A DNA stretch of 64,000 nucleotides, from positions 3,777,604 through 3,841,603 of the forward strand of contig KL647288.1 in the NCBI GenBank assembly GCA_000727475.1, in the 5' to 3' direction. This stretch comes from Sarcocystis neurona (taxonomy: Eukaryota > Apicomplexa > Conoidasida > Eucoccidiorida > Sarcocystidae). Below, piece after piece: positions 26,920 to 64,000 of this stretch (the stretch's first letter is position 1; the number at the start of each line of letters is the position of its first letter). Below the pieces are notes generated by a model. That model was not told the origin of the DNA. It did no database searches and saw only the letters and a list, made by a program, of their open reading frames with translations. Both the position numbers and the translations under genes were made by a program.

Positions 26920-27140
26920 ATGAACGTCGCATCTGCACAACAAAGAATTTCGACAGCGAGTCGGTCTACGCTGCTTCAGCTGGAGATCAAAATATACTGC
27001 CGGTGCAGCGCCAGGAAAGGAACACCTGCTGCCACATTTATTTTCGAGGAATTGTCGGCTCTGCTGAGAGGAATAGCAATAGACAGACCCCCTGTCCTCC
27101 AGCTACCCCGCTGCTGCTGCTGTTGCTGCAACACCTGACG
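26920..27140 (+). CDS. DNA-PKcs-like gene, proposed first exon
   Basis: ATG at 26920 opens 'MNVASAQQRISTASRSTLLQ', then 'FIFEELSALLRGIAID', which lines up with the 'S-L-L-x-L-Q...L-I-R-G-L' start of vertebrate DNA-PKcs. In this frame a stop comes at about 27135. A shift of one base at the C-run near 27089-27093 would instead give a poly-Leu end and a GTACCA donor at 27141. The true 3' border is therefore unresolved. Confidence 0.5.
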
Positions 27141-30100
27141 AGGTACCAGAGAGCTTCTCCTTCTTTTCCTCTTCTTCGTCTTGTCCCTTCTCCTCTTTTC
27201 CGTCGTCTTCCTATTCTTGTTGATCTTCGTCTTCCTGCTCTTCCTCGTCTGCGCCTTCTGTCAACCGGCTCGAGGTTGTGTCTGAGCTGCAACGCACAAG
27301 CCGCGGCGACGCAAATGTGAGTGTCGCGAGGAACAGCACGAACTTCTCGCTGATGCTGGAAGAGTCACCGTTCCCTGCTGTGGTCGAAGAGGCGCGGCAG
27401 CGGCTGCTGCTGGTGCTGCAGCAGGCAGGCACAAGTGTAAGCGTGCAGGAGCAGGAGAAGCAGCTGCAGCAAGTGCAGCAGGACGCTGCAGCGTGCGCTC
27501 GTCTCTTGGAAGAGGAAGGACGAAGCGCAGCTCCGGCTGAGTCCGTTAGAGAAGCGCTTTTTGCTTCTCTTTTCGGCGTGCCGCTGCGACAGCAGCAGCA
27601 CAGATGCCCGTACAAGGCAAAGGGGTCCACCTCATACACGGAGCACCAGCACGTGCCGCAGCGCGAACAGAAGTGCGAGCACCCGGAGCAGAACACTGGC
27701 GCCTTGGGAGCAGCTGCGGCTGCTGCTGCGCTGCAGCAGCCCTCTGCGTTTCGAGAAGCTCGCCGTACCGTTTTGGAGCTCTGCACTGTTGCCGTCAAGA
27801 CGTTTGGTGGGGTGTACATACAGCCCAGTGTGCAGCCAACTACCGTGGTAAGGGCTGCTGGCCACATGCAAACGTGTGTGTATGGACGCACCAGAAACTC
27901 GCGTATCCTCGAGGGAGAATGTAGATATGGCGGAGAAGGCAGAACTGCTCTCGGTTTGCCAGAACTTCAGCAGACTAAATGTGGGAGAAAGCTCATGTCT
28001 TCACGGGCTAAGTTCAGTCGACTCTTTTCTGCTTCCTGATGAACAGCGTCCCTGGTCACGTGGCGTTGCCCCCGGTACCTGGTACTGCGCTGATTACCCA
28101 GAAGCGATGAGCGCTTCAGTGTGCTTCACGTAATAAACAACTTTTTCGTTGTTGGGTGAGCGTAGAGACATGGAGGTGTTTGGTGTAAAACACGTGGACA
28201 CGGTTTTAGCTGTCTGCGTGTATTAAATGGGAGACAAGGGCACCCATCTCGGAGCCCTGCGATGTTAGAGACTGCATGCACTCATTCTATGCAGATAGAG
28301 CAGCCCCCGTGGCTCGTTGATGTGACGAATGCAGACGGTGTGTATGCATAGTTATACATCTGTGGCATAGACCGAGAGTCGTGGACACCGCGTTTGCATC
28401 CTATTTCGGCTCGATCGATTCGAGGGTGTGGGGAGAGAATTGCGTCAGATTTCCGCTGCTTCGATTGCTTGAGGTGTACATACAGGTCAAGTCTGCAGAG
28501 AGCTCCCTACCCGGCTGCTGCACGCGAAGCCAACCTTTCGCATATTCTTTCACGACTGACGGAGAGGGTGGAGGGAGGAAGTGGCCGCTTCGTGCGTTTT
28601 TCGTTCACGGCGGCTTTTCTGCGTCCGCTTGTTGTCTGTCTCCTTCACGAGTGCCTTAAAACTCTAGACTTCTCAGTTGTTGTGGGGTGCTGCTGTTGCA
28701 GCAGGCGTGTTTGAAACTGTTCCGCGTTGATTCGTCGTACCAGGTGAAGCGGGTGGCACTGGTGTTGCTGAAGGAAGTGGCGCTTGCTGTTGTTGCTGCC
28801 CGGCGGAGTGTACAACAGGATGTCGGAACGGCAGCAGCGGCAGCAACATCGTTAAACACAGCAACTGAAGTGGGCCTGACGGCACCCTTCGCTTCGCGGG
28901 CAGTGACAGCAGGCGACGAGGAACTCGAAAAGCGGCTGCTGCTACCCCTGCTGCTTCGTACCGTTGTGGGAGACTTTCTTGCCCGACCGAAGGCTTTAGG
29001 ATCTACAGTACGGGCGGCTGCTCTTCTGCTCTTGGGTGAGCAGCGCAAAGCTGCAGGAGTTGCAGCAGTTGAGCAGGCTCAGCACTGACTCTGTAGAAGC
29101 GGGGGCAGGGCGGAGCATACACTGCAGTAGAGCAACCACTAGCAGCGAGAGCGCGTGAAGAATCACTGGTGTAGAAAGCCATCTGAGTGAGCAGCAACTG
29201 CAGCGATGAGCAACAACAGCAACAGAAAGACAAGCGTGTAAGCCCTGCAAATGACCAGCGGCGGCTTCTCTAGCGTGTGTCACTTTGAGCGATTTGCCGG
29301 TCTGTCGGGTAGCTGACCCCACAAGAGGTCGTGCTGCTGGTGTTGCAAGACGGTGGACGATCTGCGAACTGCCTGCCGCCGGGACCGTGCTGCTGCTGCT
29401 GCAGACACTTGCTGTGACTCTCCCTTGATCACGCAGCAAAACAGCAATGCTGGCAGTCGTTTCTCTAAGTGTTCTGATGCTGCTGTACCAGAGTGGGATG
29501 CTGCTGCTGTTGCCGTCCGGTAAGCAGTGACTGGTGCTGCCTTTCGTGTTGTGCAGTTTGTCGCATCAGTTGCCGCTATTTATGAAGAAACCCTGCTCGA
29601 CTATGGAGTAGTGAGTCTACCACCAACAAAACTGCGTACGGCACAGCTGCGCGTGTTGCTCCTCTTTTTACTGCTGCTGGAGTTGCTGCATGTGTTACGT
29701 GGTGTCCAGTCGCAGCTGCACGAGCGCTGTCTAGCTCGCGTGACCGCATTCTCTGTTACTGCTGCTGCGGCGCGCGCCTGCTCTCTGTGTTGGCGTGGTA
29801 AACTGCTGCATAGCTTGTAGCAACGCTCTCGTCTGGCGTGCTTCTGCGCCGCCGATGAAATTCACTTCTCCTCCTGTCAACACTGGGAGGAGCGCGGCTC
29901 TATTGGTGCGGCTGTTGTCGCTACGGTCTCGCATGGCTTCTCGTGATGCAGGCAGATCATCTCTGCAGTTCTGGAGGTGCTGGTGCTGATGCGTGCAGCC
30001 ACTCTTTCGCGACTGTTTTTTCCCTTCTTCCGGCGCCAGCCGCAATGGCGCGAGCAAGTGCTTCATCTCCTCCTGCAGCAGCTGCAGCACCAGCAGCGGC

Positions 30101-33100
30101 AGACCACTGGCGCTGCTCGTGTGGAAGAGGGGGTGCTGCTTGCATGCCTGGAGGGCTTTCGATACTTCTTGGACCGACACAGGGAAGCGTTTACTGCACT
30201 TCCGCAAGAAAGCCAGTCGGCTCTGTATGCTTCAGCAGCAGTGCTAGCCGCGCCGCTTCCCAATGAAGTATCAGCACCGGCGCCACTCGATAGCGATGGT
30301 GAGAATTCTGAAGACGGTTCCGCTGCTGCTGTACCCATTAGCGGCAGTAGAACACACGCTTCACTAACTCTTAGACTGGCAGCGCTACGACTGCTGCAGC
30401 AGCATGCCCCGACGTTTGCTCCCTGCCTCGCTCAGGACGTTGTTGCAGCAGGCGTTGCTGCTGATGCAGCAGGCGAAGGGGCAGCAACACACAAGCGACT
30501 AAAAAAGAGTACAGAGATCTTCCCGGCTACTTCCGCCGCCGAGAATGGTGCAGCTGCAGGCGAAGGCAGCAGCGACGAGGAAGTGCCAAGCGACGGGCGG
30601 GGGGGGGCAGGAGTAAACAAGACGAAGGGTAGACTCGGCGGCATTAGTTTGGGATGCTGGAAAGGCAGCCTCATTGATTCACTTGTCTTTCTTGCAGTGA
30701 AAGGCTCGCCTCCTTTGCTCGCTGCAGCAGCAGCAGACACCCTCACGGCAGCAGTTGAACAGCTGTTGCTGGTGGTTCTAGTACCACCCTCTGCCACGAG
30801 GAACCCTCAGCAGGAGTCGTCTTCTGCAGATGGCACTGATTTTGCGGCTGCTGCTCCTTCACATGCAGAGACTGCTAAGGAACAACCTGCTGCTGAGAGT
30901 AAAGCTGCTGAGAGTAAAGCTTCTGAGACCCTGGAGAAGCACGAAGCGTGGAGAATAAGGTGGTATTGCTTGCGGCGGCTGCAGCAGCTAGTGCAGCAGC
31001 TGCAGCGGGGTCTGCAGCGTACTAGCCAGGAGGTGCAGCAGGTGTTGCTGCGGCAGCGAGCAGAGGTGACCGATAAGGTTGCGGTGCTGCTTCACGAGTG
31101 CGGTGTGTACAGTCGGCTGCTGGCCCTGCTGCTTGGCCCGACTCGTCTACAAGCACTTTTTTCTCCGCTACTGTTCGACAGAAATCTACCCGCAGCACTT
31201 GTGGCTGCTCTGGCAGCTGCTGAAGAGCTGCTGCATCTTGCAGCTGCCGTCGTTAGCATCGCGCCGGTGCCCACCCCAGAGAGTCTCAAACAGACAGAAA
31301 AAAAAGTGGCACCTGCTCCAGCTGTTCACTCAACCCGTGGCGTGCACCTACTCGTTAAAACGTTCCCGGTATATGTTCACGCCGCGGCACAACTCTTTCG
31401 AGGTGCTATTGGTGTCGCCACGAATCCTGGAACTGGTGGCCGCGCTGCACTGGCTCCCGCTGCCAATGCTGCTTCCGTTTCTTCTGCTAAGGACGAGAGG
31501 CTTGAAGGTCGCGCAGCCGACAGCGTTGCTTCTTCCCGAACAGAGAGCGAGAAGTTGTTGGCAACTGTGGCCGCTGGTACTGCTGCTGGGAATATGTGTG
31601 AGCAGCTCGCAGCTGCGGCAACTCGTCTTGTACCGCTGATGCAGCAGACAGCGCATCAGAAGGAGCGTGTGCGGACTGGAGCTGCCTTTGGGGCTGCCTG
31701 CGCTGCGCTCCTGCAGGCGCGAAGGCTGCAAGAGAGCGTAGCGGCGGCAGCCGCAGCAGAGTCAACTGCTGCCGTTGTGGCGGCTACAGGAGTGGCCGCT
31801 GCCGCTGGAGAGGAAGTTGCACTGCAGGGGGCAGCACTAAATACAAATGAAAAACGAGCAGGAGCAGCGGCAAGTGACGTGCGACACGCGGACGCGCACC
31901 AGGGAAGAGCCGCAACAGGTCGAAAAGCAGGAGGCACACCGGCGGCAGCAGGGGAAAGCGATGCAACTGAAGCCCGGCATGTCAAAGAGGGATCAGGGAG
32001 ATCTTCAGATGTGCCCGCAGCAGAAACAGCAGCAAAAGAAAGGACCGCGGAGCCGTCGGTTTTCGCAGCACAGTTGTTCGGAGCCTACTGCACCCGTAGT
32101 GCCGGCAGCAGTTTCAACAGCAGCAGGCTTTCAGCGAGCGAGCTGCTTGAAGTGGTGGTGCAAACTAGTGTTCTGTGGGGTGTAACGAGTGAAGAGCAGC
32201 GAGATCAGCAACAGGGAAACGCGTTGTACGCGGGCAGAGGCGGTAAGGAGACGCAGCCACGCTTGCATCCTCTGCTGCCTGCAGCACGTCATTGAACTGG
32301 ACAGCACCGTTAGGGAATCACGGCGGGGGGAACCATGTGCGCCAGCACCTAAATATATGTGTCTCAGTGGACTCATTCGTGGACAGACGCGTAATCCAAC
32401 GTATCGTTGAGTAGATGCAAATTTAGCTCTCGCTGAGATGTACGCGCAGTACGTATATATATATATGTATATAAGTATATATATACGTATCCTGTTGGGT
32501 CTAGAGGCACGTCTGTGAGCTTGTGCATATGTGTATAAATTACAGGCGCACACACGCACATATTGACACATTACACACACCTGTTAGTGCATGTTTACAC
32601 ACATACACACGCACCTATACATATATATATACATACATACATACATACATACAAATATCTACCCTTCTATGTACGTATATATATGTGTGCCTTCTTATGC
32701 ATGTAATCTCGACTGTCTGCGGGTATAGGCAATGTGGATAGGTCAGTTCAGTCGAGCACCTCACATGCGTAGGCATGTGGACCTAATGAGGTCGGCATGT
32801 GCAGGCAAGCGCTGAAGTGTACACAAACGTACACAGCAAGACGTGCTCTTACGGTTACGTTTTTGTAGACAAAGACGCGTGATCGTCTGCACATGCGTAT
32901 ATATATAAGTCGGAGCATGGGGTACTGAATAAACGCCGCGTCGCGGTGTTGCGCTGGAATTTCTTCGGTCGCCCTTCTGCGCGTTCGACTTAGAACTCTG
33001 CTGGCCGTGGTCGTGCTCTGCTGACTTTGCTGCTAGCTCGTTTGTCGATACTGAAAGCCGTGCTCGGGCGGGGTGTACGGCGCGGTGTGTGTCCGTGGCG

Positions 33101-36100
33101 CTTCATAGAGCACGCGCAGCTGACAATGCGGCATGCGCTTCATGCCGCCTGCCTGTCGCTTATCCGTTCGCTTCGCAGCTGTTACTTTCCATTTGCCTAT
33201 GCAGCAGTCCTGGCCCCCTCACTCTCTTTTCGTGCCGAATGTCTACCTTTCCTGGTACTCGGTGCGCTGTTGCCACAGCGACGCTGCTGCAGCCGGGGAG
33301 CGCTTCCTGTGCTCGGGGAGTGAGCACCCACGTCGGTGCTGTTACCCAGGCAGTTGCTTCTCTGTTGTATATATGTGTAATTATATTCGCGGACAGGTCG
33401 ATGCACATGTGTGGGCGGCTGCTGCTTCTCATTCGCATGCTTGCATGCGTGTGTGTACACTTGTGACTCGATCGATACGTATTCAAATGTAGACGTGTGT
33501 TTAGATACTGTGTGAAGGAGCGGTGGGTACCGAGTAATATCAAGGTTGCCTTTGGGTAGCGTTTATAAATGGGAGTCTATCGCTTTGCTGCACTGCAGGT
33601 TGTCTGACCATGTCTCTTCTTGTGATTGCAGCTGCAGGTCCAGGACTAGCAACAGATGTTGAACCTTCTACCGGAGCAGGTTTAGACGACGAGGATGGAG
33701 TAGGGGGGAGTGACGAGGCAGTGGGTATTGCACAGAGCAGCAGCAAAACAGCAGGAGCACTTTGGCGATACGCACTCGAAGCAGTGGTGCGTCCTGCTGT
33801 TGCCGTTGCTCGCGACCCGGCGCCGATGAACGCCGAGACAGCAGCCGAAGCTGCAGAGGCGTCTTCGTCTGGGTATTATTTTACGTCTTTCGCGCTGGAG
33901 GAGGAGCACGTCCAGCCGCGGGAACAAATTCATCTACTGCAGCAGCAGCAGCACCGCAGGTTTGCTCCGTCGAAGGAGCGGGAACAAGATAACTCCGTGT
34001 TGCAGCAGCAGCTAGCAGATCTGCTGCTGCGCTGCATATTGGGATTTTTGCGTCTCACGCTTGCTGCGAATGCCCGCACACAGCAGCAACAGCGCCAGGT
34101 GGTACAACAAGTAAGACTAGCTGTTCTGCTTTCGGGAGAGCTTGAAGAAGCAAAGTCAACAGCCGCAGCGGTACCGGCTGTGTCGTCCTCTTCGGCCGGT
34201 GCTGATGCGCCCTATGCAGTTGCTGCGGAAGGTAGTTTCGCTGCTACTGCACTCTACCCGTCTTCCGGTATCGAAAGCGCCCACGACCGCTGGGTGCCTG
34301 ACAGTAGCATAGCATCCCCGCAAGCTCTAGAAACGGGTGCTGCAGGGGCTGCAGCTCGAGCGATGTACGAGGTTGCTGTTCTGCAGCACGAAGATACATT
34401 TCATAGTCGGCTGCTGCGGCGGCTGGCAGAACTGATTGAAGAAGTCTTTCCAGGACCATGGCTTGCAGGAACACCCGCTGCAGCGCGCCAACCACCCTCG
34501 CCACTGCTGCTGCTCCTGCTCCCCTGGTGAGCTGCGTGTGTATGCTGGCAGGAAGCGGACGAACTTTGATACTGTTTCCCTTGTTGGAGAGGCTCTGCGC
34601 CGCGCACCAGACGCACGCGAACACACTCGCTTCTCTCTTTATATATATATATATATATATGTACACGTATACATATATGCACGTGTGTGCATGCGTGTGT
34701 GCGCGTTTTTTTACGACGAGTGAGAGAGGAGCGCGGCAGAGAGGGACAGAGGAAGAACAAGAAAGGAAGGTAGGTTTTGCACGCGTTTCCTACTATGGCG
34801 ACCCCCAAGGCACCGTACAGACTCCGTCGTTAGCGAACACTGTCGGCGAGGTGCCACTGCCTCCCATTCACTCCCGAGGTAATGTTCTTGCGTATTCTGC
34901 TGTCGTCTGCCTCGACACGTTGTTGGAGCAGGCCCCGTTTTTGTTCCTATTCTCCTGGAGAGGTCACCGGCGCTCTACTGACTCGCCTTTGACGGCATTG
35001 GTGTTTCCTGCAAAACTGGGGGTTTTACTGCAGCAGCCGGCCACGTTTTATCAAGGCGTACAATGGCAAACGCTATTGCTAGTTCAAAACCAGAACTATA
35101 TATGAAAAAAAAAGAATGTGTATGCTTCGCTCTTGGTGCTACGTCTTCTGCAGTCGTTGCTGCTAGTATCCGACGTCCTTTCCTTGGTGGCGCTGCCGGG
35201 GGTCGACTGGTGCACGTGGTGCTGTCTTACTGCTGCAGATACGTGCCGGCGGGCACGTCCATTAGTCCACATGTGTGCGTGGGGTGCGGACGGGTGCGTT
35301 CGCTTCATCGCTTTTTCTCGTTGTTGTGTCTGCGTTTAGTATTGCTCGTCCTTTTGTGTTGTTCTTGACAGGGCGCTGCTGGTCCCATCTCTGTGGGTGT
35401 ACGTCCAGCGACGATATCACTATATGCGTATGCACTGGTGCTCCTTTCCTCCCTTCCCATTCTGGATGGACTGTATACGTCCGCTGCTTTTCTTGCTACC
35501 GAGACAGTTATACATGCGTTCATAATGGGGGGGGTAGTAAGTGTACTGGTGCACGCTACCAGACTGCAGTACGCGGGATGGTGCCTGTGCGGTTGAATTG
35601 TAGGTCCACTTGCGTTCTACGTGGGCGTTTGTGCATGCGTGGTGGCACGTGTGTGTGCGCTTCCCATTCACTTGAGACGGGCTGCGCTGTAGGTCTTTGC
35701 TGTACTCCTCTTTCCCTGTACAAGCTTGTGTGCCAGTTCTGCTGCTGCGTGCTACTGCTGTTGCCGTAGGGTGGAAGGATTTCTACGCCTGAGCAGCGAG
35801 GCCCTGGCGACAGGAGCAGCACTAACACGGGAAGAGACAGTCGCTCCAGGGATCCTGTTGGTGATGCGGCCTTTCCTGGCCGCCTGGATATCAACTGTTG
35901 GGGAGAGCAGCAGCCGCTGCTGCGACGACGGCAGTCACGGCGACGGCAGCAGCTACGGCAAGAACACCCGGCACATTGACAGCGACGGTGAGTGCGGTAG
36001 CAGCGGAAGGGATGCAGCGGGGAGCGACGCAGGAGGCAGGCGCAGCTCTGACACAAGAAGGAGCAGTGCAGGCAGCACCAGCACGACGGACCGGAGAAGC

Positions 36101-54100: not shown

Positions 54101-57100
54101 TTAGAAAAGCAGAAGCCGGAGGAAAGAAGACGAGGATCTGCTGCGGTGCCGGTGCTGCTTCCGTCTTTCCGCCTGTCGCGTTTTTTGGTGTTCGTACACC
54201 CGAAAGAGGTCGCCTACACCGCAGCTGCCCGACGCACCGGTTTGACTATAGCTGCAGCCCTCCTCGAATCGTCGCAAGCCTCTCTGTATGGAAGCCGATT
54301 TCTGAGGTAAAAGGCGTGCACGGCGTCAGTGTGTAGAGCCAGCTGGCACTGTGTCTACTGCTGCCGCGGCAGCCCGGCACGGCGCCTGCTGCTGTCGTCC
54401 CCGCTGCGAATTCTCTTCCGACCCGAGTTTTGTTGCTGTAGCTGGTAGCATCCGCAGGGCTGCTAAGGCACCCGCTGCGCGCTGCGTTAACTGGTACTGC
54501 TGCTGTTGCTGTATCTCATGTTCTTCCGAGCCGTCTACTCGTGGCGCATACTGTTGGCGGTCCTCAGACAGCCCTGCGTCTTTGGGGCATCCATCTTTTC
54601 CTCGTGCTGCTTGTGCTGCCGCGTTTGTGCCACTGCGAGTGCTACCGCCGAGACTTTGTGCAAGCGGTGTTGGTATGCACGTGCCGCCTATCACCGCATC
54701 TGATTTGTCCTGCTGTCCTTACTATGGCGGGGGCGGATTGACAGCCCACTTTGCTGCTGTTAATACGCTGTCTGTGCGACAGCTGCTGCTGGACTGGGCT
54801 GTGTTGATACACTGCGGACGTTTCTGTCCGATGCGAGACGCTGCTCCTGCAAATGTCCAGCATACGCTTGGCTACTCGTTGTGTGCGTTGCTGTTGCTGT
54901 TTTGCCTGCAGTGACCGTCGGCTGCCTACGTTACTGACGAGCTGCCTTGACTTTCCACTGCTTCCGGTCGCACTGCAGGCGGTGTTATTCGCTGCAGGGC
55001 TGCTGCAGCAGAAGCAGCTCTTCACGCAACACCAACTGCTGCAGCAGGGAGAGCAGCAACGCCAGCAGCAACAGCCGCAGGACCTGGCGTCCTCCACCGT
55101 ACACGAGGCGGACATTCCAAGCGCCCCTGTGGGGGGCCTGCCAGCTGGACAGCAGAAGCAGCAGTCCCAGCAATATCCACAGCTGCAGAAACACCATCTG
55201 CGAAGGCCGCAGGAGCAACAGGCGCAGCAGGAGCAGCCATCCCAACACCGGTGGCTTCTGCAGACTGGGCTTCAACAGCGACAGCATCAGCAGCTGGTTG
55301 AGCTGATTACTGCTTTGCACGGAAAGTATTTTGAAATGGTCGTCCGTGAGAAGCGCCTGCTGCTTCAGAGTGAACGCGTCCCCGTACTAGGTCTGCCGCA
55401 TTCACAGCTGCTAGGATCAGTAGCTGCTAGTGGTCTTGCTGCCGCTGCTGGGGCGTCCTCAGCGCGACTATCTGGCGCCGCGGCTTTGTCGTCGACTGCT
55501 GCAGCCTCCTTGACAAGTGCAGCAGAGGACTTCCCCGACCTGGCCGCCGACACCAGTGAAGGAACCGGAGCAGCGGAGGAGGAGCAGCAGAACTATCCTA
55601 GACATGCTGCAGCTGCTGCCAGTGCTGCTTCTGCTGCGGGAAGGCCCTCCACGCTTGAGCAACTGTACACGTACACGTATGACGGACGCATGATGCGGTG
55701 TCTGCTGCCGCTGGTAGAGGCCTTTCCTCTGCTGCTACTCGGTCCAGTCGCTGCTGGTGGACTGCCATCCGCTGCTGCGACAGAAAAGGGTCCTCCTTCT
55801 GCTGCAACGGGACGGGTGGGCGGCCGGCGAATTTTCACGCTGCTGCTACAGCTGCTGCGGTTGCGACAGCAGCAGGAACAACGAGAAGAGCAGCGGCTGT
55901 TGCTACAGGCTCCGTCAAACCGCAAGACCCGACCCGTTCTACCTACGAGCAGTGGCGTGTTCCGAACGGCACTGCAGCAGCAGCAGGGCGTGCTACGCTT
56001 GCTGCTGCTCACCTGTTGCTCCCCTGTTGAAGAAGCACTCATTTCGCAGGGACTGCAGAGAAACGCTTCTGCTGTTGATGCAGAGGCATCTGGCCCAGTG
56101 GACATCCTCGACGCTGCAGGCAGTTCTACTCCGCCGGCTGCTGGTCGTAGAGTCTCAGCGGCTTGTGTCGCTGCTGCCGTAGATGCAGCTCTCCAGGTGC
56201 AGCAGCGGCGCAGCAGCAGGCGAGGCGAAGTTCGTGCGTCAGAAGCAGCAGAGACAGCAGCAGGCGAAGACGAGCCCCAGGACGAAGAACACGGTCGACT
56301 GGGTCAGGATCAGGGCCAAGAAAAAAGAAACAGCGACAGCTGGAGAGACCCTCTTGAAGCAGAAGCGCTGCTGTTGCAGTGGCAGCAACAGCAGCGACAG
56401 GAATCTCTCATTGAGCTAAGGGACATGTGGCAGTATTTTTTTGCTGGACTTGCGTCAGCGGCATCCCCTCTTAATGACGGTGTTGCTCGGCAAGGAACAG
56501 CAGGAGACGGACTCGCACAGGAGTAGGGCGGAACGACACAGGGAGCCGCGCATCTGCTGCTGCAGCCACTTCCACGAACCGCAACACCACCGGCAGAGCA
56601 GTGAGAGCAGATTGTCGCCTGCTGCAGCTCCTTCCACTAACCGCAGGAGCTTCCCGTCAACGTAGATCCTCGCAGGTTTATGTACGCTGTATAGACATAC
56701 GCCAGAGGGGGCTGCGTGTGCCTCTGAGTGTGAATGCCTTCCTGCAAGTCCGTGCACGCATGAGCAGACATGTGTATATCTCCTCACACACGTAGTGCGA
56801 GAGAGAGAGCCCGCCCGCAGCATAGACAGATATGTGCACGTACAGGCGTGGAAGTGTCTGAGGTGCAGCTAATGATCAGCGGCTGCTGCGCAGGGTTGTC
56901 TGCCTCGCCTGCGCATGTGCGTACCCTCCTCGAGTTGCTGGCGCCTCGTTTTTCGGATACAAGCCAATGTCTACACGTGTATGTGCATCGGATAGTTAGT
57001 TCAACGGAAGCATAGATTTCTAATGTGTCTGCTGCCTGCTAATATGCTAATATGTTTCTATAATAGGGCGAGTTTTTGACTGAGGAGGATCTCGCTACGC

Positions 57101-60100
57101 AAGTAGCTACTGTTCTGCAGTGCTGTTCTGCTGCAGAGTGGCGAGTGAAAAGGCAGGACTTCAAGCAGCTGCGGCCGCCTTGGTTCTGGCGCTGTTGCCA
57201 CTGATGACAGATGAAGAGCAGCTGGCACAGTGCCTTGGGCCGCTGGCGTCCAGTGCCGCAGCAGCTGCGACCGCTTTTTCTCCCGATGCGACAAACGCTC
57301 CAAGAAGCTCCAGCACTGCGACCAGCAGTAACAGTCTGCGCTTCCTGCAGCTCACGTTTTGCATCTGCGCCTGGCTCTACGATTACCGAGAGGTACGTCG
57401 CAGCAAGTCTTGTCGCACCAGCCCTCCCGCACCAGCGTTCACAGCTGTCGAACACCAGCAGCTGCAGCAGTCTCTGCGCAAGCAACAGCAGCAGCCTGTC
57501 GTCCGTCAGCAGCGTCAGTGTGGAGGCTGCACGTGCACCCCAGCAGACTCCGTGGCAGTAGTAAACAGCACAATAAGGCCGGAACTGGTATATTGGCATC
57601 AGGTTCTCTCCCAGAGATAGCCCCTTTTTTTCTGCTCACAGCTGCGTCTCTGTCGAGTAGAGGTGCCGTCTGTGGTTGACTCTTCCCACGAACAACCGAG
57701 GCGCGTGACCAGCAGCACAGCACCCTTTGCGTCGCTGCCAGCAGCGAGGTTTACACGAACAGCGGCACGAGCGCCTCTTCCAGCAGAAGCGTCATCGCGC
57801 GCAGTAGTATAACCAGTAGCGTTTCAGTCTGCAGCTGTATTTCTACCAGCAGGAGAGCTACGAGGTCTTCCTGCGGAGACACCGACTTGCCGGCGACAGG
57901 ACGTCCTCGCAGCTGTAGTTCATTACCAGGAGCCGTAAAAGCACCAGCGCTAGTTTTTCTGCGGAGGTAGAGTGTCGCTCCATTCCACCAAGTCTGCCGC
58001 ACAGCAGCGCCCACCAGCCACACCCATACACAGGCAGGAGGGTCCTGGCAAAAACAGCAACACAGAAATCAACTGTATCTTCCCGACAACCAGGTACAGC
58101 CGCTAGCGCAAGCAAGCGAACAGCAACGGATTTTGAAGACCCCTGGAGGCCAAGCAACAGCAACCGCGCAGGATTTGCAGCTTCTGGTGAACTGCTGTGG
58201 GAGGTGACAGAAGTGTGGTCGAGCGGCGACATCTGGCTTATGCAGCTGCCTCAGCAGCAGCGGCTATGAAGGGTCGATCAGTGAGCAGTTTTCCCGTATC
58301 GCAGCAGCTGACTGACGTGGGCAGTGGCGCTACTGCGAGACTGCCTTTGTGGATTACAGAGACATTCGTGCACGCTTGTACGTACATCTATGTGTACATA
58401 TATATTACTCTGGTATACATATATATATATATATACACTTGTAAACGTATGCCTATCTGTACACTTTTACATACGTATATGAAGATGTTGGTACGTCTGC
58501 GGGTGCTACGGTGTGGACACGTGTATGTGCCAACGTATTTCTAACTGTACATCCGAACGGCGTCGTAAGCGCGTGCAGCAAATCTGCATGCAGCCTTGTG
58601 ACTCTCCCTACCTGTTGCACGTCTGCCCCAAGGCACGCGAGCTCTCCTCGCGGCAACACCAGTCTTTTGTAGAAGCGTAGATCCCAGTACCGGAGAAGCC
58701 GGCGAAGACCGCAACCGAAGACTTGGCTCAGCGGCAGGTGACTGACACACAGTAGGAAGAGGCGGTGAATTGGGGAAGAACTGAAGAAAGAAACGGCTGC
58801 GGGGGGCCGTCTACCGTCGAGTGGACCGTGCCTGAAGACAGAAGAAAGAAAAGTGGTCGAGCGGTAGTACACGTAGTGCATATGCGTACGGGAGTAAGAA
58901 GACAGAGGGACAGAGAGGACGAAGAACAGAGGGACAGAAAAAATGAAGAGCAGAGAGAAAAAATGGTGGGCCGACGTCTCGTGACAGCTACACGCACATA
59001 GGTGATCGTGCCTTCCTATACAGGTGTGTATCCATCTGTTTGCTCACCTACTTCCACCAGCAAATCACATACGCGCGTGCGTGTCTGCGGAGTGTCCTCT
59101 GCCCTCTGCTGCTCACTCGTGTACGTTTATGTGGACTTCTGCTTTTGGGTGGAAGCAACTGTGTGCGCGCGTGTCAGTATGTGTACCTGGTGTGAGTACC
59201 AGCTGCGTGGCTTACGCGTGGTGAGCTGCACTAGAATATTCGCCCCACGCTGTCTCTCTGAGTTTCCGCATCGACCTGTTTTTGGTGTACGCAGGGATAC
59301 GACGAGAACCAGTTTGTGTGCTCCTTCCTGTTGCGTCGCTTCTCCGCGGGGCCCTTGCAGCAGCAACAGCAGAAGTTTTGGCTGCACGCTACACCCCGCC
59401 GTCGTCTCCCGCGGGCCCCTGCTCTACGTATATCTGCACTTCTCTCTCTGTGTGCTAACCACCCGAAGGCCGCGGCGCTGCTTGACCTGGTTGCTGCTGC
59501 TCTTGTACCCGAAGGCACCTCTGGTGCTGGTCCTGCCAGCGGCCTGCCCCCGACTGCGGCCGCTAGCCCCCGCGTGTCTGCTCAGCGCGCCAGAGCAGCA
59601 GACGGTGCGGCAGACGCAACAACAATTGCAGCGGCGACGGCGGCAGCAGCAGCAACAGCAGCAGCAGCAGCTAGGGCTTCGGCGAGTGGGTTCGAAGGCA
59701 AGTTAGCACGCCTTGCTGCTGCTTCTCTTGAGGCTCTGGACGTCGTGGACACACTTTGTCGGGCCAGTGCTGCTGCAGCAGCAGAGAGCGGCAGCAGCAG
59801 CGGCCGCGTGCAACAGAAGAGCAACAGCAATACGGTGTTAAGCTGTCGCATGGTGTTGCAGGCTGTAGCCACGCTACCGGTGCTGAAAGGGCTTTCAGGT
59901 ATGAGACAGGCCGACGGGCTGCGCAGCAGCAGCATCAGAAGCGCCTACGGGCAAGGGTTCCAGCAGCAACTCCGTGAGGCTGCATCTTCTGTATATCCTC
60001 TCCAACGACCAAACGCCGCTGCAAGTGGCCTACGGTCTGCCACTGACAACTCTACTGCACCCGCTGTGCCAGCTGCTGGTGTTCCTGCAGACGCACGGCC

Positions 60101-63100
60101 AGCAGGTGATGCCTTGCAGGAGTTGCTGCAGACGTCGTTGGTCCCAAGTCGCGGTCCTCTCTCTATCTATTTCACGCAGCAGCGGCGGCTTACACAGCAG
60201 CAACAGCTGTTTGCACATCGGCAGCAGCTCTTGCGGCAGCAGGAGGAGCACGTGCCTCACCGTCGCTTCCGGGTGGAGCACCAGCAGCAGCAGACGCAGC
60301 TCGTAAAGCAGCTAGTGCAGCAGCAACGTCTTAATCAGCAGCAGCTGTACTTAGTCAGTCCGCCCTCCTCGCTACTTGCGCCTGCTACAGGTGCTGCCGC
60401 TTCTGTCGGTGCACTGACGGAAGGGCCGCATCACCAGCCGTATTATTCCCGGAGGGAAAGAGCAGCAGCAGCACGTGAAGCAGCAATAGCGAAGAGCAGA
60501 AGGAAAAAACAGCAGCTGCAACGAGCGCTGCGGCTGCGCGTTGCAGCACAGCGTGGAGATCAGGCCCCAATAAAATTTTCGCTCTTTCCTCCCGGGGGAA
60601 TGCAGCAGGAAGTACCCGCGGCAATTGCTTTGTGTTCCTGGCAACCCCAGCAGCTGCCGTGGCCGCAGCCGGGTGCCTCTTTCTCGTTGATGTACTCCAA
60701 CGTAGCCGACGTATCCTCTGCGGGTGGCCCTTTTACGACCGCTGCTGCTGCTGTCTCACTCCCTACTTTGGCTGCCGCCGCGAGTTCACCCGTTTCCGCT
60801 ATTCCTCCGGTAGGTGCTGCTGCTTCAAGTGCACCAGCAGCAAGCTCCGCTGCACAGCTGCTTGTAGGCAGTTGCAGCACCACAGCAGCAGCTGCAGACG
60901 TGCTGCACTGCCTCGTAGCAGCTAGCCACGTCGACGCGCGCATGGCAGCAGTGTTTATTTGTGGTGCTGTTTACGGCCTTTACAGGGCTGCAGTGCTTCT
61001 TCCTGCTGCTGCAGAGGGCGACAACACCACTGCAGCGGGCGCAGCGTCGCGGTTTGGAGCCTCGTTAACAATCCGAGAGAGCGACCAGGAGGAAGAGGAA
61101 GACGCGGCTGCTCCTGACGCAGGTGAACATGCTTTACCGGTGGAAGTAGCAGAACGCCTCCGCAACAGCGTAGAGGTTGCCTTAGAAGGCTGGGCGGCTG
61201 CCTTGTCGTCGACTCGCAGCAGGGGCGGGGGAGGAGAAGAGGAAGAAGAAATCTTGATGCTGCTTCGACTTGGTCTGCTACTGCAGGCCCTCCGGCCTCA
61301 ACAGCTCTCTTTGCCTGTTGCCCAGCTGAAGCAAATAGCCCGCATGCGCCTTGCAGACGCCAGCAGGAGCAGTCGTTGCGCCGCCGCTGCTGCGCTGCTG
61401 CTTGAAGACGTGCTGCACTGCCAACAGCAGCAGCAGCTGCTGCTCGCGTGCTGTGGCAGCGGCCCTGGAGGACGTCAAATGACAGCGCTGCCGCTCTTCC
61501 AGTCGCCCCGAGAACTGAGTCGGTCTGCCCACCAGGTGCTGCTGCAGCGACGCAGCGTCTCTGAAGGACAGCAAGTGCTGTTGCTGCTGTACCACCTGGT
61601 CAGATGCTGGACTGCAGGCGGACAAGAGACTGCGTACGACGTAAGTGCGACAACGGACAGCGAAGGCAGTTTTTTCGGTGCACAGCAGCTGCAGCAGCAG
61701 GGGATGCTCAAGCTTCTTGCAGAAGCTGGGTTTCTCTCTCCCACAGCCGCCGAAGCCCTGCAGCTCGTGCAGACGGGCCACCAGCAGCAGCGCGCCGCTG
61801 CGCTGCTCCGAACGCTGCTGCAGTTGCACGCACGTGCCATTCCGCCTCGAGGAAGAGGAACACTAGCCGCAGGTGCTGCAGGAAGAGTGGCAGCAGCGGA
61901 AGGAGACGAGGCTGCCTGGCTGCTTCAAGAGGCTCACGTAACGGCGCTGCAACGAATGGGAAGGTCAGAACCAGCAACTCAGCGGCGTCCACCCAAAAAA
62001 TTGTCCCCGTAGTTCTCAAGCGCGAAGCTTCACGTGGGGCCGTGGCGTTTCATTGCACACGCAGACGTGCACTTGTGTGTGTATTTCCACACATATACGG
62101 CAGCACACTTACACTTACATATATATATATATATACACGTTTGAACAGGTGTAGAGATAAAGGGAGGTATGTCTGAATGCCGATGCAAATACGTGTACCC
62201 TAGCGTGTGCCCATGTGATTCTGGTCAAGCGTGGGCATACAAGCGTGTGGTGGTCTCCGCTGGGTTTGCGCAGCAGAGCGGGAGAGATCGACGCAGCTGA
62301 AAAAACGTTTAAAGAGAGCGTGTGGTATTCCTGGTGTCTGTAACGTTCTGCGTATCTGCAGATCGTCTGCCGCGTCACTTCGCCCTTTGTATATACGTGT
62401 CCACACGTCTGCGAATGCGTTGAGACGCCTGCACCGTTGCAGATTTTTTGCTGGCGCGCGTGCATGCCTTTTTCTGTCGTGACGGAGCTGCCTGCGTCCG
62501 TCTGCAAAAAGCAGAGAGGGCTGCGCCCAGGTAGCTGCTGTGGACCTCGCCACACGAGGCGATCCTATCTGGAGGAGTGGTCAAGAACATCTGCACCAGC
62601 CGGGGACACGTGACACTTGCTGAAGGTTGCTGCACGGCCGAAATAGAGCCACATGGAATGTAGTAATAATGACGGCTTCGAGCACGCACTTGTATGTTAA
62701 AGCGGCGAGACACAGACACGTGTACACACCAAAGGTGAAGAAGTTTGCGACTGTCTCCAGAACCTACCCTGTTCCACTAGACAAGTGTCTGAGAGACGAG
62801 AGCACCATCCGCGAGAAGCTGCAGTCCACCCAGGCCGGCGCAACGGCTGGAGCAGCAGCGAGCGGGCGACAGCAGCACAGTCAACCTGGGGGCGGCGGCA
62901 CGGTAGAACGCAGTCCTTCTTGAAGGTGCCCCTGCAGCAGCTGCACACACACGTTCGTAGGTTAACGTATTTTACGTGTTAACGCGAGACAGTTTAAAGA
63001 GAAAACAGAGGACAGGAGGTCGCAGTCACCTGCAGGAGAGAGCGGTGGGAAAACAGCTGCACTGTCGGGGAAGGTGAGTCGTTTGGACTTGGTGACTCGG

Positions 63101-64000
63101 GTGATGCCGAAGACTTCACGAATTATCCGAGAAGCACATGCACGTAGGTTTTGAATCCGTGAGGAGGTGTAACTTGCAGAGTCGCTCACTTCCGATGTCT
63201 GCGGCAGTGACAGAGGCAGCGGCAGCAGAAGTGAGACGGGCCCCTCACGAGGAGCTGTACGTCCCGTCGACCGCACTGGCACATCCGCGCGTGTGCCTAC
63301 CGGTACAGTATCTGACCTGGCTGTCTGAAGGCTTCTGCTTCGGCAGCAGCGGGCAGTGCAGATGACGAGAATCACGTCGCTTCGAAAAGCGCGTTTGCAG
63401 CTGGACCGCGCGCCAGACCCACAGGAGCGACAGCGCAGCGCCGCTTCTATTTTGAACAGACGTCTACCGGCCGGGGTTTGGACGGGTAGCGACGGAAGAA
63501 GCGTGTCGCCATCGCATGTGTGTGGTGCCCATCTCGTAACTGTTGCTCTCGCTGCTGCGACGACTGTTGCATCCGCGTCTGCTGCTGCTGCAGCTACTAC
63601 TGCCGCGACGCGGACGGACACAAGTGGTGGCAGATGTTATAGTACTTCTGTTTTCCTTCGTTCACGCCTGCAACTGTTGCAGCTGCAGTGCTGCTGTCAA
63701 TCAATTTCAACCGCTGCTGTCTTCGTTTTGGGCTGATTTTTGTTGCAGGGGCGGCTGGTCCGTCTCGGCGAGCAGCGATACGCAGTTGCCGGTGCTAGTG
63801 ATGTGCTTCCTCTGCATGCAGGTGGGAAGAGATTTTTACCACCTACGCGCCGGTGGCGTGGGAGGAGGTGGAGGAAGCAGCTGCTGCAGCAGAGGAGCAG
63901 AGCAGGAGCAGCTTCTGTGACGCGGAAGGCAGTGCGGAGAGTTCGCTGCTGCTATTTGCCGGCGACGCAGCAATTGTGCGTGCTGCTGCGTGGGTGGAGA
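26920..64000 (+). CDS. DNA-PKcs-like giant PI3K-related kinase gene (overall span, 3' partial)
   Basis: This span appears to be one gene for the DNA-dependent protein kinase catalytic subunit, the nuclear kinase that joins Ku70/Ku80 at double-strand breaks in non-homologous end joining. At least 17 exons, in order, carry segments that I can align from memory with vertebrate DNA-PKcs. They cover the N-terminal HEAT region (27.3-34.5 kb), the 'R-x-L-x-F-L-x-x-L-G' and 'ACE-L-L/VLYAI' region (37.2-38.0 kb), the region before and including NUC194 (39.8-50.4 kb), the post-NUC194 HEAT repeats (51.6-59.4 kb) and the basic linker ending 'APIKFSLF' (60.4-60.6 kb). Most intron phases agree, as listed under the exons. 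About 7,400 codons cover what is roughly 2,800 residues in human; the excess is poly-Ala, poly-Gln and poly-Ser insertion. The FAT, kinase and FATC domains are not in the window, so kinase identity is inferred. Alternatives are another HEAT-rich PIKK (ATM, ATR, TOR, TRRAP) or an unrelated HEAT scaffold. Confidence 0.72.
27145..27262 (+). promoter_or_regulatory. exceptionally long polypyrimidine tract before an acceptor
   Basis: For nearly 120 bases the sequence is almost all C and T (TTCTCCTTCTTTTCCTC type) with very few AG dinucleotides, ending a few bases before the acceptor CTCGAG at 27274. This is the expected architecture of a strong 3' splice site, far longer than usual. Confidence 0.7.
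27275..27847 (+). CDS. DNA-PKcs-like exon, N-terminal HEAT
   Basis: 191 codons end at GTG/GTAAGG (27848) in phase 0. A long helix ('AVVEEARQRLLLVLQQAGTS') is followed by Gln/Ala-rich sequence and then 'FREARRTVLELCTVAVKTFG'. That last block aligns with the 'F-R-E-C-R-E-E-I-L-K-F-L' block near residue 80 of vertebrate DNA-PKcs. The 5' border could be 27275 or 27301 (AAG), depending on how exon 1 ends. Confidence 0.72.
28702..29035 (+). CDS. DNA-PKcs-like exon, HEAT repeat
   Basis: After TGTTGCAG the exon encodes 'QACLKLFRVDSSYQVKRVAL', a classic HEAT helix pair continuing directly from the previous exon, then 'LEKRLLLPLLLRTVVGDFLA'. The donor is TTGG/GTGAGC. Entry is phase 0 (matching 27847) and exit phase 1. 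Confidence 0.78.
29570..29610 (+). CDS. DNA-PKcs-like micro-exon
   Basis: This 41-bp exon encodes 'VAAIYEETLLDYGV' between GCATCAG and GTGAGT. The alternative acceptor at 29555-29556 would break the frame. This one takes phase 1 from 29035 and leaves phase 0 for 29956. Confidence 0.7.
29956..32179 (+). CDS. DNA-PKcs-like exon, HEAT repeats 4-8 region
   Basis: The long exon begins 'IISAVLEVLVLMRAATLSRL'. It contains 'RVEEGVLLACLEGFRYFLDR' (aligning with 'L-A-G-C-L-K-G-L-S-S-L-L' of human), 'LTLRLAALRLLQQHAPTF' (aligning with 'A-G-L-R-L-F-A-L-H-A-S-Q-F') and 'SPPLLAAAAADTLTAAVEQL' (aligning with 'K-K-A-A-L-S-A-L-E-S-F-L'). Acidic and Ala-rich insertions lie between them. The proposed donor is TGGG/GTGTAA (phase 1), which fits the next exon. 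The frame stays open to 32295. Confidence 0.8.
32180..33631 (+). other. intron of the DNA-PKcs-like gene
   Basis: 1.45 kb rich in (TA)n and (ATAC)n tracts with no supported exon. It contains several short open frames of low protein character. It ends in TGTGATTGCAG. Confidence 0.65.
32631..32652. repeat. (ATAC)n microsatellite
   Basis: Tandem ACAT/ATAC units are preceded by a (TA)n tract and lie in the intron 32180-33631. Confidence 0.9.
33632..34526 (+). CDS. DNA-PKcs-like exon
   Basis: The exon enters in phase 1 and leaves in phase 2 at CCTG/GTGAGC. Helical blocks include 'LADLLLRCILGFLRLTLAAN' and 'FHSRLLRRLAELIEEVFPGP', separated by Ala/Ser-rich and Gln-rich stretches. The position matches the M-HEAT start of DNA-PKcs, but residue-level similarity is weak here. 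Confidence 0.68.
34766..35080 (+). CDS. DNA-PKcs-like probable exon
   Basis: After AAGAAAG the frame reads 'VSYYGDPQGTVQTPSLANTV' and 'NVLAYSAVVCLDTLLEQAPF', which fits the 'Y-Q-M-P-S-F-L-Q-S-V-A-S-V-L-L-Y-L-D' stretch of human DNA-PKcs. Entry is phase 2, matching 34526. The 3' end is uncertain (a phase-0 donor such as GTACAA near 35060 is likely), and the frame stops at 35105. Confidence 0.55.
35372..35536 (+). CDS. DNA-PKcs-like exon
   Basis: 55 codons, phase 0 at both ends, from TTCTTGACAG to GTA/GTAAGT. The exon encodes 'AYALVLLSSLPILDGLYTSA', which resembles 'Y-E-L-I-L-Q-S-T-R-L-P-L-I-S-G-F-Y-K-L' of vertebrate DNA-PKcs. Confidence 0.7.
35770..38062 (+). CDS. DNA-PKcs-like exon with diagnostic block
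   Basis: The exon ends at GCGG/GTGAGT in phase 0. It begins 'VEGFLRLSSEALATGAALTR'. A Ser/Gly/Arg-rich stretch (AGC-frame repeat) and a Gln-rich stretch separate folded parts. Folded blocks are 'LGVGRLSLAETALTLLEVLF', 'DAFRFRVLRFLATLGDAAHF', 'RFGGKVLLIPLRPFDE', 'RATACEVLYAIICYVRRSA' and 'VYRQLLPVVMRVCGSSSG', followed by 'LRQMLQPLLLQIARETGF'. In order and spacing these match vertebrate DNA-PKcs 'R-I-R-V-V-Q-M-L-G-S-L-G-G', 'F-A-V-P-F-R-E-M-K-P', 'V-A-A-C-E-L-L-H-S-M-V' and 'R-Q-L-Y-E-P-L-V-M-Q-L-I'. This is the strongest evidence for the family. The first border is approximate, because the previous exon leaves in a different phase. Confidence 0.82.
38063..39835 (+). other. intron of the DNA-PKcs-like gene
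   Basis: 1.8 kb with (TA)n tracts at about 39008-39030, 39457-39472 and 39524-39543. I see no supported exon. The frame at 39593-39835 is open upstream of the acceptor but is not needed for phase or homology. Confidence 0.6.
39836..41067 (+). CDS. DNA-PKcs-like exon
   Basis: The exon starts after a CTG-rich acceptor (GCTGCTGCAG) in phase 0 and ends at ACT/GTACGT in phase 2. It opens 'LLALEDVLVEAIASPTSSAA', aligning with 'V-A-L-L-E-A-I-L-D-G-I-V-D-P' directly after the preceding exon's last block. It closes 'RRFALSLWPLAL'. The middle is Ala/Leu/Gln-rich. Confidence 0.75.
41068..42165 (+). other. intron of the DNA-PKcs-like gene
   Basis: It begins GTACGTCC and ends GCTGTGCAG. Several open frames with Ala/Ser/Arg-rich translation exist, but a direct join of 41067 to 42166 keeps frame and gives a continuous match to the family. 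Confidence 0.65.
42166..50382 (+). CDS. DNA-PKcs-like giant exon including NUC194 region
   Basis: This is an 8.2-kb exon of about 2,740 codons. It starts 'TDLSASCRGLARRLLLQLYA', matching 'E-C-R-H-K-S-I-E-L-F-Y-K-F-V' of DNA-PKcs. Further blocks include 'FMEYWGCFDLMNAAGRLWWA', 'KAVDELMALHFPLDSHEL' (aligning with 'I-V-A-H-F-P-M-Q-S-R-E-F') and 'LIWELRMRGFGCLSAAICST' followed by 'ERLYASFLLQPSHWLPLL'. The last pair aligns with '[20 protein letters not shown]...F-L-F-S-E-K' at the end of the NUC194 domain (PF08163). Poly-Ala dominates, but 45.5-46.8 kb is Ser/Gly/Asn-rich because the same CAG repeats are read in the AGC frame. Entry is phase 2, and exit phase 2 is at CACTC/GTAAAC. Confidence 0.8.
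50383..51584 (+). other. intron of the DNA-PKcs-like gene
   Basis: 1.2 kb with (TA)n and CA-rich tracts. A frame at about 51360-51480 ('DTGVPAQLRKQLNEPAVVRT') has some protein character and could be a small exon, but no phase evidence was found for it. Confidence 0.5.
51585..52193 (+). CDS. DNA-PKcs-like exon, post-NUC194 HEAT
   Basis: Entry is phase 2 after TTGCGCAG, and exit phase 2 is at TGCG/GTACGT. The exon encodes 'LLQEIFRADFISRCPLLPLL', aligning with 'N-T-E-E-V-F-R-P-Y-A-K-H-W-L-S-P-L-L', and ends 'DERLAGGSSLHYLLR', aligning with 'G-G-E-G-I-H-Y-M-V-V'. The first 35 codons are unusually Cys/Trp/Leu-rich because CTG/TGC repeats are read in the TGC frame. An alternative acceptor at 51694 would remove them but break phase. 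Confidence 0.72.
52194..52953 (+). other. intron of the DNA-PKcs-like gene
   Basis: The intron is bounded by GTACGT and CGTTGTCGCAG. It holds a 238-codon open frame (52200-52913) that is not coding by phase and homology. Confidence 0.7.
52954..53169 (+). CDS. DNA-PKcs-like exon
   Basis: The exon continues the previous one in phase 2: 'HYLLR' plus 'DACVLLLTWLPPPPAEP' aligns with '[21 protein letters not shown]', and 'VATFLQRLMQRATHPDPEIH' aligns with 'L-L-N-F-L-M-K-H-V-F-H-P-K-R-A-V-F-R-H'. The donor is ACAG/GTACGC, exit phase 2. Confidence 0.8.
53170..53925 (+). other. intron of the DNA-PKcs-like gene
   Basis: 756 bases with no supported exon, containing short (TA)n and (GT)n tracts. Confidence 0.65.
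53926..54306 (+). CDS. DNA-PKcs-like exon
   Basis: Entry is phase 2 after GATTCAG. The start 'RLNMQLFVLLFTRFAGLFSL' follows the preceding 'EIH' as in the family. After a Pro/Glu/Arg-rich insert comes 'FVHPKEVAYTAAARRTGLTI', aligning with 'F-V-R-Y-K-E-V-Y-A-A-A-A-E-V-L-G-L-I-L'. The donor is TGAG/GTAAAA, exit phase 2. Confidence 0.78.
54912..56520 (+). CDS. DNA-PKcs-like exon, Gln- and Ala-rich
   Basis: Entry is phase 2 after TTGCCTGCAG. It opens 'DRRLPTLLTSCLDFPLLPVA', then a long Gln-rich stretch, then 'LVELITALHGKYFEMVVREK'. 'YDGRMMRCLLPLVEAFPLLL' aligns with 'M-E-D-K-F-I-V-C-L-N-K-V-T-K-S-F-P-P-L'. The frame closes at 56526, and the 3' border lies somewhere in 56430-56520 (for example CAGGA/GTAGGG). 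No donor there has the phase 0 needed by the next exon, so a small exon may be missing. Confidence 0.65.
57067..57392 (+). CDS. DNA-PKcs-like exon with apparent frameshift
   Basis: The first frame gives 'FLTEEDLATQVATVLQCC' and 'SAAEWRVK'. The second, one base out of step, gives 'AGLQAAAAALVLALLPLM' and 'FLQLTFCICAWLYDYRE'. Together they align continuously with 'K-D-F-V-Q-V-M...D-E-R-Q-K-V-C-L-D-I-I-Y-K-M-M-P-K-L...M-Y-N-I-L-M-W-I-H-D-N-Y-R-D'. The switch falls at the A-run 57148-57151, as if one A were missing. The donor is GAG/GTACGT, phase 0. Confidence 0.68.
57393..58017 (+). other. intron of the DNA-PKcs-like gene
   Basis: 625 bases with no supported exon. CAG-rich frames continue past the donor but contain stops. 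Confidence 0.5.
58018..58203 (+). CDS. DNA-PKcs-like probable exon
   Basis: The frame reads 'FEDPWRPSN' then 'AGFAASGELLWE' and stops at GAG/GTGACA in phase 0, compatible with the exon at 59295. The frame stays open a little further ('VTEVWSSGDIWLMQL') to a stop, so the donor choice is not certain. The 5' border (CACCAG at 58017) is chosen for phase 0. Confidence 0.5.
58204..59294 (+). other. intron of the DNA-PKcs-like gene
   Basis: The intron contains a (TA)n tract (58416-58436) and a purine-rich stretch of GACAGAGG-type units (58903-58965). It ends GGTGTACGCAG. Confidence 0.6.
58903..58965. repeat. purine-rich GACAGAG/GAAGAAC imperfect repeat
   Basis: Imperfect repeats of GACAGAGGGACAGA and GAAGAACAGAGGGACAG give almost pure A/G on the + strand. 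The tract is intronic. Confidence 0.7.
59295..61963 (+). CDS. DNA-PKcs-like exon: last HEAT, basic linker, start of FAT-like helices
   Basis: Entry is phase 0 after GTGTACGCAG. 'GYDENQFVCSFLLRRF' and 'KFWLHATPRRRLPRAPALRI' align with '[22 protein letters not shown]', and 'SALLSLCANHPKAAALLDLV' with 'L-L-A-L-N-S-L-Y-S-P-K'. After Ala/Gln-rich sequence (where the ABCDE phosphorylation cluster lies in vertebrates) comes 'YYSRRERAAAAREAAIAKSR', then 'QRGDQAPIKFSLFPPG'. The pair aligns with 'M-Y-A-R-K-G-V-A-E-Q-K-R-E-K-E' and 'R-H-G-D-L-P-D-I-Q-I-K-H-S-S-L-I'. The helical remainder ('LKQIARMRLADASRS', 'LRTLLQLHARAIPP') fits the TPR-like entry to FAT. The proposed donor is GGAAG/GTCAGA, and the frame closes at 62012. 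Confidence 0.78.
61964..63821 (+). other. intron(s) with possible small exons
   Basis: Mostly non-coding, with a (TA)n tract at 62118-62136. Two frames have protein character: about 62715-62830 ('VSRTYPVPLDKCLRDESTIR') and about 63190-63350 ('HEELYVPSTALAHPRVCLPV' then 'QYLTWLSEGFCFGSS'). They may be exons of the same gene, but phases could not be checked. Confidence 0.4.
63822..64000 (+). CDS. DNA-PKcs-like probable exon, cut by window end
   Basis: After CTGCATGCAG the frame is open to the last base: 'WEEIFTTYAPVAWEEVEEAA' and 'LLLFAGDAAIVRAAAWVE'. The closing residues resemble 'P-P-D-V-L-R-W-V-E-L' just before the vertebrate FAT repeats, but the match is short. An alternative frame without this splice is also open. 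Confidence 0.5.

Follow-up and report, generated by a model that had tools for sequence, protein, structure and literature searches.

The closest described system is the T. gondii protein TGME49_266010, which the passages on it in PMC6381018 list as a DNA-PK by BLASTP, with a mass of 964 kDa, a FATC domain and a phenotype score of -3.15, and which the corresponding passages of PMC7325978 name together with Ku70 and Ku80 and give a phenotype score of -3.21; both scores are fitness-conferring. The passages in PMC7325978 also report Toxoplasma Ku70 as apparently essential and T. gondii as having no XRCC4 orthologue, the latter in conflict with the statement in PMC6635534 that all C-NHEJ components are retained. 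The original prediction for the locus described here, that a full DNA-PKcs would not be routinely annotated in coccidia, is contradicted by the listing of TGME49_266010 as DNA-PK (PMC6381018); the giant size of a coccidian DNA-PK was already known from that listing, and the Sarcocystis neurona gene is a further member. The two proteins are alike in being coccidian and giant and in having a FATC domain, and no FAT domain is given for the T. gondii protein by motif scan in these sources (PMC6381018, PMC7325978). Their orthology would follow from family and size, 964 kDa as against a rough exon chain of 8128 residues here, a length that comes from permissive exon chaining which is wrong in places. 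In a limited literature search, the only papers on this gene concerned Toxoplasma and Neospora. Human DNA-PKcs (PRKDC; PDB 7k17, 5w1r), with 4128 residues in PDB, shares LEVPGQY-, KGGEDLR- and LPVP..PFRL-like stretches and a DPN.LGR FATC with the S. neurona protein, whereas the coccidian protein is interrupted by long low-complexity inserts, the kinase domain included, and has a solenoid that is missed by plain sequence search.

The window, i.e., the whole stretch of 64,000 nucleotides that was analyzed, corresponds to positions 3777604-3841603 of contig C1 (KL647288.1), plus strand, in a genome of 123 Mb and 74 contigs, all of which was searched. We think it probable that the window holds the N-terminal part of one giant plus-strand DNA-PKcs gene running from ~27 kb to 86038, a judgment that covers the single gene from 27 kb as well as the DNA-PKcs identity; that the kinase, taken alone, is of DNA-PKcs type we hold to be nearly certain. 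The identity is argued from the C-terminal part of the gene, which lies beyond the window, and from collinear weak blocks in a giant exon. The protein would have the DNA-PKcs order of HEAT solenoid, FAT, PI3K-like kinase and FATC, swollen by Ala, Gln and Ser runs.

Kinase and FATC domains beyond the window

The next 40 kb of the contig were examined, with the window numbering continued. A genome-wide search gave seven matches to PF00454 and three to FATC, one each being on C1 and on the same strand: the PF00454 match, to the catalytic loop, at C1:3858447 (plus strand, 16.8 kb past the window end) and the FATC match at C1:3863546 (plus strand, 21.9 kb past it). Elsewhere in the genome there is a second FATC end at C10:3575745 (8.1e-12), and a TRRAP-like pseudokinase frame was seen by eye at C20:48465, where the PF00454 match is weak and below the cut-off. 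The original prediction had placed a kinase within 15 kb of the window end, and the domain does start 11.5 kb past it, on the same contig and strand. Four plus-strand kinase exons are linked by three standard GT/AG splice junctions: 75511-75669 with LEVPGQY (start approximate, donor GTGAGC), 77861-78007 with KGGEDLR (donor GTAAGT), 79911-81041 with the catalytic loop GDRHLEN (donor GTACGG), and 82244-82711 with IDYGYSF and LPVPDVLPFRL. These are followed on the same strand by a stretch at 84813-84950 and by the FATC and stop at 85877-86038 (TGA at 86036-86038). Three catalytic stretches, FLCKGGEDLR, GDRHLEN and IDYG, align with DNA-PKcs and include the Lys, the Asp/Asn pair and the Asp expected of a kinase; we take these to be the ATP-site Lys, the Asp and Asn of the GDRHxxN loop, and the DFG-type Asp, respectively. 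TRRAP, a pseudokinase, was rejected because these catalytic stretches are present, and no TRRAP was among the 54 distinct sequences listed when the kinase-FATC protein was compared with PDB.

For comparison with the PIKK family (phosphatidylinositol 3-kinase-related kinases) the kinase exons and FATC were spliced by hand. Against PDB the best match of this protein was DNA-PKcs (E 2.8e-40, 142 bits), the other PIKKs scoring at best 90.6 (an mTOR chain), 71.6 (SMG1), 65.6 (Tel1), 64.7 (ATR) and 52.4 bits (ATM); the DNA-PKcs-like reading, as opposed to ATM, ATR, TOR or SMG1, is thus borne out for the kinase-FATC part. Another PIKK, above all TOR, was weighed because the exon frame 79872-81053 taken singly scored higher against mTOR (35.2 bits) than against DNA-PKcs (32.7 bits); however, a single kinase exon cannot tell the two apart, and therefore the whole domain is needed, and once the remaining kinase exons and the FATC are included, DNA-PKcs is ahead of mTOR by 51 bits. 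A public search over 5.8 billion proteins, with scoring applied to the 7976 candidates that had the most words in common with the query, returned ten proteins passing E 0.001, the first four being P0002, P0003 (a EukProt transcript protein of 3967 aa), P0004 (Symbiochloris irregularis) and P0005 (Pleodorina starrii), followed by five TOR-like proteins and one ATR-like protein. By their precomputed domains P0002, P0003 and P0004 carry PF19704, presumably the DNA-PKcs CC5 domain, and P0002 and P0004 carry PF08163; we call these three DNA-PKcs type on account of those domains, and P0005, which has kinase and FATC domains only, on account of its place in the tree, where it adjoins P0004. The kinase of P0003 is 34% identical to that of S. 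neurona over 410 columns; all four proteins fall far short of the rough S. neurona chain in length, and their solenoid similarity to the window is weak. In a kinase tree of 11 rows the S. neurona gene, on a long branch, groups with the four DNA-PKcs rows P0002-P0005 with 99/99 support, a value that covers the group of four and not the order inside it.

A HMMER profile built from the four DNA-PKcs-type proteins and run against every frame of 40 aa or more agreed with this placement: four C-terminal exon frames matched in order at a full E of 9e-11 or less and a fifth (75451) at 0.046, and kinase and FATC frames were the only ones below E 0.01. The FATC was matched by this profile and was absent from the best 25 rows of the TOR and ATR profiles. 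By sequence comparison, then, the FATC is of DNA-PKcs type and the kinase resembles DNA-PKcs more than it does the other PIKKs, and TOR was rejected on the PDB scores and the tree; we consider it very improbable that the gene is TOR or a further PIKK. A search for the FRB domain was silent in the S. neurona genome and in controls alike and hence uninformative.

The FAT domain of the DNA-PKcs gene would lie ahead of the kinase. The original prediction had proposed extending rightwards to look for FAT, kinase and FATC; the kinase and FATC were found, while for FAT there is one block, 67538-67711, which matches P0003 3305-3356 with a single-frame score of 29.9. Exon chaining gives a probable FAT exon at 63822-64169, which crosses the window end (63822-64000 in the window, plus strand), and a putative FAT-region exon at 64921-67708 (plus strand); the FAT exon had no PDB match and no significant Pfam match.

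The giant exon and its solenoid similarity

The largest open frame in the window, 41903-50383 (plus strand, 2827 aa), contains a giant exon at 42166-50383 with an acceptor before 42166 and an approximate 3' end. A relative of it, P0001, a protein of 2131 aa from assembled public reads (longest contig 11.3 kb), aligns with 31% identity across 87% of the stretch used as query (E 3e-25). P0001 matched neither a protein family nor a PDB entry, and a search from it for further relatives of the giant exon returned nothing beyond P0001 itself. A decayed non-coding relic could account for a very divergent solenoid with many low-complexity runs, but the open frame extends over 8.5 kb with this relative conserved in the same frame, the kinase residues and splice sites are intact, and the genome holds a Ku80 partner with a binding region (see below); on these grounds a relic was rejected, and we regard it as the least probable of the readings considered.

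From the conserved part of the giant exon (46820-49252, plus strand) and P0001 we made a two-row profile and compared it with the DNA-PKcs profile. Four collinear plus-strand blocks were found by HHalign, at ~47723-47845, 48146-48244, 48506-48601 and 48938-49048, matching P0003 872-912, 1542-1575, 1596-1627 and 1656-1692. The E-values for the four solenoid blocks were 0.025, 0.11, 0.27 and 0.63, with probabilities of at most 1.9%, each weak alone. Chained, they scored 100.5, and none of 100 column shuffles reached as high (mean 21.8, maximum 70.1); the reversed query gave 21.9 and the TOR profile 25.2. The last three blocks alone sum to 81.4. Among the ten frames submitted to Pfam, the conserved part of the giant exon gave PF20502 (DNAPKcs_CC1-2) at E 0.034, below the cut-off, and these frames gave nothing else. 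No window frame matched the HMMER DNA-PKcs profile at E < 0.1, and PDB searches returned no PIKK for the giant exon or P0001, for the two alignments between them, for the frame 59262-62009 or for the FAT exon. PF08163 (NUC194/CC3) had no match over the S. neurona genome, and 14 control genomes were equally silent, making this search uninformative. An AlphaFold2 model of the conserved part reached a pLDDT of only 32.

A scan of 754 single frames on both strands, in which the kinase frames gave no result, had its best four matches at 84.8, 48.9, 67.5 and 52.0 kb, all on the plus strand and collinear. Longer in-window chains of weak single-frame matches were rejected as evidence, since control profiles give similar chains: at a cut-off of 22 DNA-PKcs scored 110, the reversed profile 115 and TOR 119, and at a cut-off of 20 the scores were 237, 196 and 119. 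The match at 52.0 kb is a DNA-PKcs-like stretch at 52030-52194 (P0003 1946-2000) in the frame 51448-52193 (plus strand), with donor GTACGT after 52193. The DNA-PKcs blocks proposed along the gene in the original prediction are therefore found in part, at ~47.7-49.0 kb and 52.0-52.2 kb, and the N-terminal blocks are not, there being no HMMER or PDB match to them. The region 47.7-52.2 kb is thus placed in DNA-PKcs by statistics, and 42.2-47.7 kb by the continuous frame.

Downstream, all on the plus strand, lie probable exons at 52954-53169 (acceptor and donor present), at 53926-54306 (start by acceptor, end by exon chaining) and within 54808-56523, a frame of 572 aa that ranks 4 of 115 by summed codon score and in which a block at 55675-55845 (P0003 2200-2258) scored 21.0, within noise. 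The frame 57084-57617 (plus strand) has a weak block by the DNA-PKcs profile (HMMER E 0.12), with a single-frame score of 20.9, again within noise. The pre-FAT frame 59262-62009 (plus strand, 916 aa), with no significant Pfam or PDB match, resembles the DNA-PKcs linker by eye.

The exons before 41 kb and the extent of the gene

Between 22 and 59 kb seven plus-strand frames run without a stop for more than 320 aa (29947-32292, 33538-34527, 35693-38083, 39593-41092, 41903-50383, 51448-52431 and 54808-56523), the longest on the minus strand being 273 aa, and eight of the eight splice positions quoted in the original prediction obey GT/AG. These frames and splice sites bear out the ordered series of probable coding exons. 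When a codon score trained on the exons past 59 kb was summed over each frame, six plus-strand frames stood at the top of 115 frames of both strands; however, this ranking follows frame length, and per residue several minus-strand frames are equally high (0.27 and 0.30, compared to 0.20-0.28), and therefore the codon score adds little beyond frame length.

Five plus-strand exons before 41 kb would belong to the DNA-PKcs gene. A possible first coding exon, obtained by exon chaining, is 27353-27847 in the frame 27224-28036 (donor GTAAGG after 27847, summed coding rank 9 of 115). It is followed by frames that each hold a probable exon: 29947-32292, presumably N-terminal, 782 aa (rank 2) with no homology or significant family; 33538-34527, 330 aa (rank 6); 35693-38083, 797 aa with Ser and Gln runs and no significant family (rank 3); and 39593-41067, with donor GTACGT after 41067 (rank 5). 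Pfam, the HMMER profile and the single-frame scan revealed no homology in the exons before 41 kb, and PF20500, an N-terminal solenoid domain, had no match either in the Pfam search with five frames upstream of 41.1 kb or by the DNA-PKcs profile. The link of the 27-41 kb region to the gene consists only of the shared strand, the long open frames and the splice sites. It is conceivable, if rather unlikely, that there are two genes, an unknown plus-strand gene at ~27-41 kb and a DNA-PKcs gene starting at ~42 kb or later, as the frames of the first region are those for which no homology was found. Set against this, the supported profile positions of the giant exon start at 1542 of 3967, so that N-terminal sequence is still owed upstream, while positions 872 and 840-1040 are weakly supported for the giant exon; furthermore, the frames are long, open and on the same strand, and the join 41067/42166 obeys GT/AG. 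We favor a single DNA-PKcs gene, which would be read as one transcript.

Upstream of this gene, a 983-residue frame at window positions 19050-22001 (minus strand) has a PRP38 family domain with a long remainder after it, and RCC1-repeat matches occur in the frames 2438-3406 and 8835-9512 (plus strand). As for the source organism, the assignment to the apicomplexans is supported by the SRS/SAG domain (PF04092), which is matched 20 times in this genome and whose family points to Sarcocystidae; five of the 20 matches share a single open frame, 7628 residues long (C4:15764-22528, minus strand). A genome search for the Eimeria-type SAG (PF11054) was silent, as were its controls.

Ku partners and end joining

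The S. neurona genome encodes what its domain matches identify as a Ku80 with a DNA-PKcs-binding region. The frame (L020:5917-8247, on C2 at about 7149416-7151746, minus strand) matches both PF02735 and PF08785 (Ku_PK_bind), the latter at 5.6e-11 and 43.1 bits against a cut-off of 25; PF02735 scored 24.7 bits against a cut-off of 25, and 27.2 bits in the genome search. The frame had no match in PDB at E 1. Its C-terminal end is AEEQELLDLIE, and in animal Ku80 an acidic tail of this kind binds DNA-PKcs. A Ku_C match at C5:2390161, with what looks by eye like a SAP stretch in a later frame, is probably Ku70, and one locus for an ATP-dependent DNA ligase was found in the genome. Genome searches for Ku_N (PF03731) were silent, and so were the controls; for XRCC4 the best E was 1.36, below the cut-off, with control genomes silent too, so that this search is uninformative on absence.

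Because of the anatomy of the gene and its partner proteins we favor an animal-type mechanism, and most likely DNA-PK acts here as in animals. Ku70/Ku80 would be loaded onto the end of the broken DNA, the Ku80 tail would recruit and hold the DNA-PKcs solenoid, and the kinase would phosphorylate repair proteins, allowing end joining; a DNA repair role is what the kinase would be expected to have. More tentatively, and with considerable doubt, we speculate that coccidia have a complete, swollen DNA-PK holoenzyme, with Ku70, a Ku80 tail and a DNA-PKcs about twice the human length, lacking a detectable XRCC4, in which the kinase is essential apart from end joining. The suggestion of such an essential role comes from the combination of a Toxoplasma Ku80 that is dispensable with a DNA-PK that is fitness-conferring and a Ku70 that is apparently essential.

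What the sequence evidence establishes is a kinase and FATC of DNA-PKcs type, the catalytic residues, and a Ku80 with a recognizable DNA-PKcs-binding region from the same genome as the giant kinase. To the known size of the coccidian protein our analysis adds the layout of the kinase exons, the collinear blocks in the solenoid and the tail of Ku80, and a likely identity is given to a gene of ~60 kb of a kind that automatic annotation may well split. The DNA-PK pathway in the S. neurona lineage is now testable, which may help drug work on coccidia.
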